Part shown: piece after piece, positions 61,230 through 62,861 of the stretch
Layout: every line of letters begins with the position of its first letter
Numbering within the stretch: position 1 is the stretch's first letter
Origin: Crocinitomicaceae bacterium
GTDB taxonomy: Bacteria; Bacteroidota; Bacteroidia; Flavobacteriales_G; Salibacteraceae
Length of the DNA: 64,000 bases
Reading direction: 5' to 3'
NCBI GenBank assembly: GCA_002713215.1
Contig: PAVO01000020.1
Coordinates: 62,001 to 126,000 of the forward strand
The notes under the pieces: generated by a model
The model's database searches: none
Told to the model about the DNA's origin: nothing
What the model saw: the letters and a program-made list of their open reading frames with translations, nothing else
Position numbers and translations under genes: made by a program

Positions 61230-62045
61230 ATGAAAATTTCAATCACCATTGGATTTGCCTTTACCTTTTTGTTACTAAGCTGTAATTTTATTGGTGAAGA
61301 TGAGCAAGTTGATACAGACGTTATTTTAGCAGATAGCGTATCGGATCGATTTACACATGAGTTGGGCACTGTTCGTAAGAATATAGAGCAGAGTGCTACT
61401 ATGTATAACCGACTATTTAAATTGAACTGTCCGTATAACCCCGAACTTCCATTACCAGATCAACGAGCTTATGACTTAACCTCTCAAAAGGCAATTGGTT
61501 TTGGTGCTTATGCTGCAAGTTTTGTTTATTGCGCATCTTATCAGCAAACTCAGCAGGCCACAAAATATTTGGACTTCATTATTCATCTATCTGAAGAGTT
61601 GGGAATAGCAGGGTCTTTTGACGAGGATGACCTGGTATTGCTTTTGTCTAACGACACCAGCGTAGATAAGTCGGCTACCTTAACACGTGTATATCTAAAA
61701 GCAACAGAACAATTGTATACCCAGGAGAGAGCAATTTTAGTGAGTTATATGGTTGCCGGCGGTTGGGTTGAAGGGATGAAAATGAGCTATGAAACCTGTG
61801 GAGATTATCTGGATAAGGATGGCATTCGGTTGGGAATCTACGATCAGACTTTTAGCTACTACAATTGCGTTAGAATATTAGAGACATTTTCTGAAGATGA
61901 AGAAGTGGCTACCTTGGGAGTTCGAATGAAGGAATTGCAACCCTTAATTGATAAGGTAGTTAAAACCCGGGGAGACATCGATGAAGAACTGTTTTCTCAG
62001 GTAAAAAGTGCCATCGCAATTCTTCGTGAAGAAATTCACAATTAA
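61230..62045 (+). CDS. Lipoprotein, distant paralogue of the 60244 gene
   Basis: 271 residues from ATG 61230 (KISITIGFAFTFLLLSC); lipobox LLSC, Cys18. All-helical body sharing spaced motifs with the divergent gene 60244. An upstream TTG at 61203 would add nine residues in front of the signal. The two genes are head to head with a 110-base gap, so they may be controlled together. Function unknown. Confidence 0.75.
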   Translation: MKISITIGFAFTFLLLSCNFIGEDEQVDTDVILADSVSDRFTHELGTVRKNIEQSATMYNRLFKLNCPYNPELPLPDQRAYDLTSQKAIGFGAYAASFVYCASYQQTQQATKYLDFIIHLSEELGIAGSFDEDDLVLLLSNDTSVDKSATLTRVYLKATEQLYTQERAILVSYMVAGGWVEGMKMSYETCGDYLDKDGIRLGIYDQTFSYYNCVRILETFSEDEEVATLGVRMKELQPLIDKVVKTRGDIDEELFSQVKSAIAILREEIHN

Positions 62046-62069
62046 TTTATCCGCATTTAAAAAGAATAT

Positions 62070-62077
62070 TATTTTTG
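62070..62077 (+). promoter_or_regulatory. -7 box in front of the tRNA-Pro locus
   Basis: TATTTTTG followed by CCG is an exact TAnnTTTG and lies 18 bases before the degenerate tRNA copy at 62095. It is probably the original promoter of the tRNA gene. It now precedes the broken copy and the GIY-YIG gene, not the intact tRNA directly. Confidence 0.5.
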
Positions 62078-62094
62078 CCGCCCGATAACGGATT

Positions 62095-62146
62095 CGGGAT
62101 GTAGCGTAGCCCGGTTATCGCGTCCCGCCATGGCGGGAAGGTCACA
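62095..62146 (+). pseudogene. Degenerate 5' copy of tRNA-Pro
   Basis: Bases 62095-62122 match the first 28 bases of the intact tRNA at 62396 with one change (G5 to A). The anticodon arm is replaced by a perfect 16-base palindrome, TCCCGCCATGGCGGGA (62123-62138). AGGTC and CA follow as in the variable region, then similarity stops where the T-arm should be. It cannot fold to a full tRNA. Confidence 0.8.
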
Positions 62147-62158
62147 AAACGTTAGAAA

Positions 62159-62410
62159 ATGGAAGTGTACATATTGTACAGTCGTTCTTTAAAACAACAT
62201 TATGTTGGACAGACACAAGATTTATTGGATCGAGTGAAGGTTCACAATGCAGGGCATGTAAAATCTTCGAAACGAGGAAGTCCTTGGGAAATCAAATGGC
62301 ATATCAAATGTGCTAATAGATCTGAGGCTATGAAATTGGAAAGAAGAATAAAAAAGAGAGGCGCAAGTCGTTTTTTAGAGGATATAAAGTATTCTCGGGG
62401 TGTAGCGTAG
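62159..62410 (+). CDS. Small GIY-YIG nuclease wedged in a tRNA-Pro gene
   Basis: 83 residues: one GIY-YIG (URI) domain. VYILYS and HYVGQT are the two name motifs, with catalytic Arg in DRVKVHN and Glu in KLERRIKKRG. It starts 13 bases after the degenerate tRNA copy, and its stop codon TAG lies inside the intact tRNA (overlap 62396-62410). Small GIY-YIG proteins of the YhbQ/UvrC-domain type are abundant in Bacteroidota. The placement between a broken and an intact tRNA suggests a mobile element that rebuilds its target tRNA. Confidence 0.9.
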   Translation: MEVYILYSRSLKQHYVGQTQDLLDRVKVHNAGHVKSSKRGSPWEIKWHIKCANRSEAMKLERRIKKRGASRFLEDIKYSRGVA

Positions 62411-62470
62411 CCCGGTTATCGCGCCGCGTTTGGGACGCGGAGGTCGCAGGTTCGAATCCTGCCACCCCGA
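62396..62470 (+). tRNA. tRNA-Pro (anticodon UGG)
   Basis: 75 bases without encoded CCA. Acceptor stem CGGGGTG / CACCCCG, D-arm GCGTAGCCCGGTTATCGC, anticodon arm CCGCG TTTGGGA CGCGG with anticodon TGG, variable AGGTC, T-arm GCAGG TTCGAAT CCTGC, discriminator A. All stems pair fully. The first 15 bases double as the 3' end of the GIY-YIG gene. Confidence 0.96.
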
Positions 62471-62475
62471 CTCAG

Positions 62476-62508
62476 AAGCCTGACACGAAAGTGTCAGGCT
62501 TTTTTATT
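62476..62508 (+). terminator. Intrinsic terminator after tRNA-Pro
   Basis: AAGCCTGACAC, loop GAAA, GTGTCAGGCTT followed by TTTTATTT, beginning five bases after the tRNA. Confidence 0.92.
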
Positions 62509-62510
62509 TG

Positions 62511-62861
62511 AACCAAGTCAAGCTTGCTTGAATGAAGGTGAAAATAAAAAAGACAAGAGCGACAAAGTCGGTCGGGCTTCGTATGTCTTTAAAATCCATT
62601 TCAGAATCACTAAAAGTAATCCTGCCACCCCGACAAAAGCCTTGCACTGTGGTGCAATTGGATTTTGAACCACACTTCAAGGGATCACTGACCAGAGGGA
62701 AGTGAATCCTGTCATCCCGAAAACCTTTGAAAGCCTCTATTTATGGGAATTTTCTTTTTATTATACTAACAAGATTTGAACCTACGGGCTATGAAGAATT
62801 TTAATCCTGTTTTCGGTAAAAAAGCAGCAGAAAGTAATTACTCTCTGCTGCCATAATGGTA
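62511..62861. repeat. 350-base gap with further copies of the tRNA-Pro 3' end
   Basis: AATCCTGCCACCCCGAC, the last 16 tRNA bases plus one (62455-62471), recurs exactly at 62618-62634 and with two changes at 62705-62720 (AATCCTGTCATCCCGA). The second copy is followed by another hairpin, TTGCAC-TGTG-GTGCAA, comparable to the real terminator. No gene is seen. The right end is the terminator of the protease gene. Confidence 0.7.
62815..62851 (-). terminator. Terminator of the HtrA gene
   Basis: GCAGCAGA (62824-62831) pairs with TCTGCTGC (62844-62851); the inner AGTAATTACT is also self-complementary. On the minus strand TTTTTTACC follows the stem. Confidence 0.8.

Follow-up and report, generated by a model that had tools for sequence, protein, structure and literature searches.

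A GIY-YIG nuclease gene between a hairpin-plugged and an intact tRNA-Pro gene: an apparent family of very small mobile elements in Bacteroidota

The tRNA-Pro locus and its empty counterparts

The window (the whole stretch of DNA analysed, 64,000 nt) contains a complete tRNA-Pro(UGG) gene, a small open reading frame (ORF) for a GIY-YIG nuclease in front of it and, ahead of both, a broken copy of the 5′ part of the same tRNA gene (Table 1). An earlier note, made from the sequence alone, had read this order, and we find it as claimed at 62095-62471, together with the details that the last 15 nt of the ORF, among them its stop codon, double as the first 15 nt of the intact tRNA, that a -7 box remains before the broken copy, and that the anticodon arm of the broken copy has become a perfect palindrome. 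The box is of the Bacteroidota type. Because tRNA nt 1-28, the palindrome and nt 46-50 are consecutive, the anticodon arm (nt 29-45) has been swapped for another hairpin of nearly the same length. The two tRNA copies give a direct repeat (62094-62127 and 62395-62428, 91% identity, copies 301 nt apart).

Table 1. Features of the tRNA-Pro unit and its flanks, in window coordinates
Feature	Coordinates	Strand	Basis
-7 box TATTTTTG, promoter element belonging to the original tRNA gene; at present it precedes the broken copy	62070..62077	+	Sequence; motif also in empty sites L098-L100
Left piece of the broken copy (tRNA-Pro nt 1-28); differs from the intact gene by a single mismatch	62095..62122	+	Sequence comparison
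Hairpin plug TCCCGCCATGGCGGGA, perfect 16-nt palindrome replacing tRNA nt 29-45 (anticodon arm)	62123..62138	+	
Broken copy, right piece AGGTCAC; AGGTC is tRNA nt 46-50 (nt 46-53 matched in L015)	62139..62145	+	
GIY-YIG nuclease, 83 aa, single-domain; ends within the intact tRNA	62159..62410	+	ORF and Pfam
Intact tRNA-Pro(UGG) (anticodon TGG)	62396..62471	+	
Hairpin, then T run: probable transcript terminator	62478..62499	+	Sequence

The intact tRNA-Pro is 100% identical to the tRNA of relatives without the element, and its own genome has no further full-length match above 77% identity. Among 60 relatives and the own genome, G000, G021 and G002 alone have a partial tRNA-Pro match (nt 1-28 or 1-53) beside a full copy. 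The own genome (5.03 Mb) has a single instance of the palindrome pattern TCCCGCCNNGGCGGGA; the plug, being single-copy, is not one of its abundant repeats. Two more tRNA-Pro 3′ ends without ORFs lie behind the intact tRNA (62618-62634 and 62704-62721), the latter reading GAATCCTGTCATCCCGA, closer to the GGG isoacceptor; a tRNA-Val (L006) has a similar fragment behind it. Such fragments are possibly relics of T-arm insertions.

The window protein matches the Pfam GIY-YIG domain over residues 3-69 (E=1.2e-13); PF01541 is matched by all 31 members of our nuclease profile A1, and Y15, R25, H29, E61 and K65 are invariant across 31 relatives. A conserved domain with the catalytic Tyr, Arg and Glu residues, our test for membership of the superfamily, is thus present. 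Among solved structures the best sequence matches are minimal UPF0213 proteins (UPF0213 or stand-alone Slx1-like structures, PDB 1zg2 and 1ywl) and the structure-specific SLX1; a single-sequence structure model (mean pLDDT 76.3) supports no conclusion here. The window protein has no match in PHROG, and tblastn at E<=1e-5 gave none in either the phage or the plasmid collection, on which ground a phage or plasmid origin is rejected. Annotation as a defence gene is likewise rejected, its PADLOC matches being only weak (best E=0.0021). For other phyla, one contig scan with the window protein gave three loci (L011-L013), and the stretches fetched for them contain no tRNA.

A tRNA-Pro search matched 57 of the 60 relatives, and 29 tRNA-Pro(UGG) loci of relatives were inspected (the window excluded), 27 of them without an adjoining nuclease. 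Three of the 27 (L098-L100) are syntenic with the window: the two genes upstream in the window both have homologues there (44-49% and 56-61% identity over the best pieces), the tRNA is identical, and a partial copy is absent. Upstream they read TATTTTTG then GCCGCCCGA (GCAGCCCGA in L098), and in the window this motif precedes the broken copy. Since the promoter motif and the following sequence of the empty sites stand before the broken copy, it is the broken copy that occupies the original tRNA start. Comparison with relatives lacking the gene had been proposed in the earlier note, which held that an element inserted in the tRNA and restored the 5′ part that it displaced; the syntenic empty sites support that account. 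They meet an allele test (the element in some genomes, the same site empty in relatives) and, the upstream flank of the broken copy being the empty-site flank, a restored-target test (an insert carrying a part copy that restores the gene).

Both tRNA copies without the nuclease would, according to the same note, have refuted the account. Of the 27 nuclease-free loci one, L115, shows this pattern; its upstream copy is hairpin-plugged, lacks an ORF and resembles a relic. ORF-less copies with D-arm hairpins were seen both there (tRNA-Pro of G016, where the anticodon arm is also affected) and at L090 (tRNA-Arg of G026), and we regard the two as relics or non-autonomous forms. Eleven other nuclease-free loci have a downstream match to about tRNA nt 40-66; each of them has a tRNA-Arg, whose T arm we take the match to be, without verification locus by locus. 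The remaining two of the 29 (L114 and L126) have a related nuclease and a plugged 5′ piece; in L126 no ORF follows the plugged piece, and a second unit stands after the tRNA.

Distribution, plugs and target sites

The earlier note had also advised a search for other tRNA-GIY-YIG units in the genome, and two exist, at tRNA-Val(GAC) and tRNA-Arg(CCT). Among ten GIY-YIG matches in this genome, three are therefore tRNA units (Pro, Val and Arg), alike in their order of 5′ tRNA piece, palindrome, ORF and intact tRNA; the ORF of the Val(GAC) unit has an in-frame stop.

Matches to the window protein were found in the genomes of 33 of 60 relatives. In set 1 (relatives and own genome), which was obtained with the window protein alone, 53 of 80 distinct domains lie at most 420 nt from a same-strand tRNA, and none is beside an opposite-strand tRNA only. 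A profile search (E<=1e-6) of 247 Bacteroidota genomes from across the phylum found a nuclease relative in 161. Set 2 (L128-L217; 30 loci and 60 more regions) consists of the best matches to A1 among the matches listed; within these, a same-strand tRNA adjoins 89 of 121 distinct domains and lies farther off for 21 more, mostly members of tandem arrays. The tRNA share of set 2 is biased, because A1 was built from nucleases beside tRNAs. Over both sets, 142 of 201 distinct domains, from 89 Bacteroidota genomes, lie at most 420 nt from a same-strand tRNA, again with none by an opposite-strand tRNA only. For 33 of the 201 there is no tRNA in the stretch fetched, and several of these (array members or at contig ends) retain a plugged tRNA fragment. 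The count of 201 leaves out L001-L003, L008-L014, L044 and L150 (L014, L044 and L150 are duplicates; the own genome's other GIY-YIG genes are L001-L003 and L008-L010), domains below 100 nt and repeated loci of one genome; some loci are counted twice in the neighbourhood survey of set 2 and in the insert and broken-copy surveys (e.g. L145/L160, L147/L164, L152/L168).

A separate GIY-YIG clade (L004, L065 and the second gene of L051, at 1960-2160) stands 122-171 nt behind tRNA-Ala(GGC) with no plugged copy; it is included in the tRNA-neighbour counts, though we do not class it with units of this kind.

A two-piece partial copy of the cognate tRNA, separated from the intact tRNA by the ORF, is present in 123 of 151 regions; tRNA queries of the wrong isotype reach an equal score in 20 of 755 trials. 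The broken copy is upstream of the ORF in class A, as in the window, and downstream in class B; both polarities occur, and the palindrome is a systematic hairpin plug. Plugged or broken copies were found for 15 tRNA isotypes in 64 genomes. The insert between the tRNA pieces was measured without requiring a hairpin, and removal of repeats of the same tRNA and insert left 107 unique copies. A perfect end-to-end stem of length at least 6 is present in 56 of these (shuffled mean 2.79), and 40 inserts reach p<=0.01 in 300 shuffles; by eye, some of the other 51 have two hairpins (Ser, Pro-GGG) and some none.

Inserts fall in the D loop (after nt 21-23, with nothing lost), the anticodon arm (loop or whole arm swapped) or the T arm (loop or nearby), the arms being assigned by tRNA numbering. 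The plug site is typical of tRNA and clade and constant within a group across differing hosts: Asp/Gly plugs share one position in 10 copies (9 genera, 5 families), Met plugs one position in 8 copies (7 genera, 4 families), and Pro(UGG) units of both classes one common site (nt 27/28 and 45/46). The outer six plug pairs are kept in nearly all, with a variable loop; in the Asp/Gly copies they are Watson-Crick in 10, 10, 10, 9, 10 and 10 of 10, and one pair has gone from A-T to C-G by changes in both halves of the stem. Sixteen swaps of the anticodon arm have a single insert, usually a hairpin, in its place, with the same flanks on either side. The side that is dispensable for rebuilding the tRNA keeps 5-34 nt of tRNA beside the plug (56 copies, stem at least 6). 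The broken pieces have a mean identity of 98.8% to the host's own tRNA, which among 93 comparisons is the best match in 65, ties in 27 and is bettered by another genome's tRNA in one. Copies so nearly identical imply that transfer is mostly within species, or that the two copies have been corrected to each other.

Palindromes of the form TCCCGCC-N1..8-GGCGGGA are dispersed away from tRNAs in G047 (L218-L232) and G053 (L233-L236), some of them inside long reading frames and in repeated DNA with one or two copies. We regard them as a tiny dispersed hairpin family resembling the plugs; given palindromes of the same form away from tRNAs, the plug might not be exclusive to the element.

We counted 31 stretches with tandem runs (a figure that includes some loci twice); a run has 2 to 5 genes at distances of 250-520 nt. 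Repeated attack on a rebuilt tRNA would be expected to give such runs, and so would unequal crossing over. Mapped onto a 108-domain tree, tRNA identity needs 32 changes (77.0 for shuffled labels) and host family 52 (73.4 for shuffled labels); the labels are clearly clustered, and nuclease clades follow tRNA identity better than they follow host family. The domain tree has few columns and weak support, so that single clades are of limited reliability.

Targets other than tRNA genes also occur. In the genus g84, three of the eight genomes have a GIY-YIG ORF of this type within the gene for RNase P RNA (L195 1450-2144, L139 and L140, in G122, G111 and G220). It sits between GGGTAATCGC and AGGAAAGTCCGGAC, which places the insertion in the hairpin of helix P3, and in G122 a perfect 21-nt inverted repeat flanks it. 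No ORF was found in the RNase P RNA of the other five genomes of the genus, three of which have 33 nt between the landmarks; the loci compared include L243-L245. At L204 of G284 (1443-1830, ORF-strand coordinates) a unit precedes a gene that, from a motif, we take to be rfbB-like: a 5′ fragment of it reading MNKRIIVTGGAGFI is followed by the nuclease and then by the intact frame MNILVTGGAGFIGSN. Fragment and intact frame do not share a start, as though that of the latter had been brought by the element.

A proposed homing-type element and its rivals

From the architecture, the empty sites, the association of clades with tRNAs and the site-specific plugs, all of which we observe, we infer cleavage, homing and a function for the plug, and interpret the unit as a minimal homing-type mobile element of ∼300 bp aimed at tRNA genes; we put the probability of this at roughly two in three. 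A single-domain GIY-YIG nuclease would attack the D, anticodon or T arm of the tRNA gene that it targets, and every clade of these nucleases would favour one tRNA and, as a rule, one site. Repair from an element-bearing allele would then insert the nuclease gene and a copy of one tRNA part, leaving one full tRNA, which stands upstream of the gene where the 3′ part is carried (class B), downstream where the 5′ part is carried (class A, the window). The left-over half of the old target would stay beyond the ORF, with the hairpin plug interrupting, and probably marking or disarming, the target site. Since the ORF always lies on the tRNA strand, its transcription probably starts at the tRNA promoter, and tRNA processing would release it.

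The syntenic empty sites and their identical tRNA speak for a homing-type element, within what can be judged without experiment. So do the three units of the same type in one genome, the tandem arrays, the insertions at RNase P RNA and rfbB-like genes, the same-strand tRNA proximity, the cognate broken copies, the plug stems, the fixed plug positions and the clade-tRNA association. Against it stand the 51 of 107 copies without a simple stem of at least 6, the fit of the broken pieces to the host's own tRNA and not, as in fungal mORFs, to that of a foreign donor, the palindromes dispersed in G047 and G053, the 33 of 201 domains without a tRNA in the stretch, and the small size of the protein, which leaves no room for a separate DNA-binding domain. 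As to destruction of the site, the left-over copy is plugged there and a full intact tRNA is also present; since the latter retains the whole target, the site does not seem to be lost on insertion in the way known from classical homing.

This retained target would cease to be a problem if the nuclease acted on hairpin single-stranded DNA (ssDNA), which would spare the double-stranded intact tRNA gene; the plug would be its own recognition hairpin, and the element would spread by the cutting of ssDNA during replication or natural transformation. The Ssn family of Neisseria consists of small GIY-YIG enzymes that are site-specific ssDNA nucleases acting on hairpin ssDNA, and the Neisseria repeat that they target is a palindrome with TCCC..GGGA ends; we know of no Ssn nuclease in a tRNA-inserted mobile unit. 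The placing of inserts in stem-loop arms of the tRNA, conserved plug stems with varying loops, the 16 arm swaps between the same flanks, and minimal UPF0213 proteins and the structure-specific SLX1 as closest solved structures all fit such an enzyme. We nevertheless consider it a doubtful alternative, as biochemical evidence is lacking and the dispersed palindromes have no nuclease nearby.

Direct repeats and tandem arrays are also typical of duplications, and a resident, immobile GIY-YIG gene could have come to be flanked by tRNA pieces through ordinary segmental duplication. Syntenic empty sites, plugged or broken copies spread over so many isotypes and genomes, clades that track tRNA identity across host families, and site-specific plugs leave this very little room. 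We give still less credence to a mobile group I intron in the tRNA gene carrying a GIY-YIG homing endonuclease: GIY-YIG genes and tRNA genes are classic group I intron partners, and the window protein has a weak similarity to TIGR01453, below the family cut-off, but the tRNA is contiguous and complete, and the gene lies outside the intact tRNA except for the 15-nt overlap. An E-value scan of 61900-62800 for a group I intron gave no match, and an interrupted tRNA with a self-splicing core is refuted for the window. An integrative island at a tRNA att site was rejected too: no integrase gene separates the tRNA copies, the intervening 250 nt (62146-62395) having no ORF other than the GIY-YIG one.

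The homing-type reading has a broader form, which we advance only as a conjecture. It would make the units a phylum-wide class of smallest autonomous elements (∼300 bp, with one nuclease that is a catalytic domain only) that read DNA hairpins, invade hairpin arms in genes for structured RNAs (those of tRNAs and, within a single genus, one of RNase P RNA), exchange the natural hairpin of the left-over copy for one of their own, rebuild the gene and jump again; the rebuilt gene would still be a target, so that repeated jumps would produce tandem arrays.

Known systems and significance

The mORF elements of fungal mitochondria (Allomyces macrogynus atp6; Glomus atp6, atp9, cox2 and nad3) are endonuclease ORFs that insert with a copy of a gene part, replacing the displaced native part, which stays behind; the inserted part is 64-81% identical to a relative's gene, against 91-98% for the native part (PMC3630166). 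Like these, the tRNA units rebuild their target and leave the displaced piece. The mORFs concern protein genes, C-terminal parts, mitochondria and a diverged inserted part, whereas the tRNA units lie in bacterial chromosomes, mostly at tRNA genes, copy either end with hardly any divergence, contain a hairpin plug and encode a nuclease of ∼80-100 aa. Foreign origin of the restoring part, for which we also tested, is not borne out, the broken pieces matching the own tRNA at 98.8% on average; the element therefore works like an mORF without being classed as one.

The GIY-YIG homing enzymes of T-even phages are larger than the window nuclease. One T-even enzyme, SegB, is reported to cut in tRNA-containing sequence and to cause amplification of the segment, and the genes of SegB and other free-standing GIY-YIG homing endonucleases of these phages adjoin tRNA genes, as the window gene does; the SegB system is one of phage clusters, and the accessible portion of its description has no broken, plugged tRNA copy (PMC13096335). 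Selfish GIY-YIG enzymes (homing, restriction) derive from the UvrC lineage, and Slx1-like GIY-YIG proteins form a lineage separate from the homing enzymes and mostly vertically inherited, according to PMC1564403. The window protein has in common with UPF0213 and Slx1-like proteins a single minimal GIY-YIG domain; unlike the Slx1-like lineage, a protein of this type here sits in an apparent mobile element.

Within the literature on GIY-YIG genes with tRNA or target duplication (most subscription papers and preprints not covered), we found no such unit described, and this looks like an undescribed family of very small mobile elements. If so, single-domain GIY-YIG genes, easily dismissed as stray domains, would drive a widespread class of mobile element. 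It would become testable how a selfish gene survives in an essential single-copy tRNA gene without death of the host, whether tRNA arms are recognised as DNA structure, and why the intact site is tolerated. The family also offers many natural nuclease-target pairs from which the specificity of very small nucleases may be learned.
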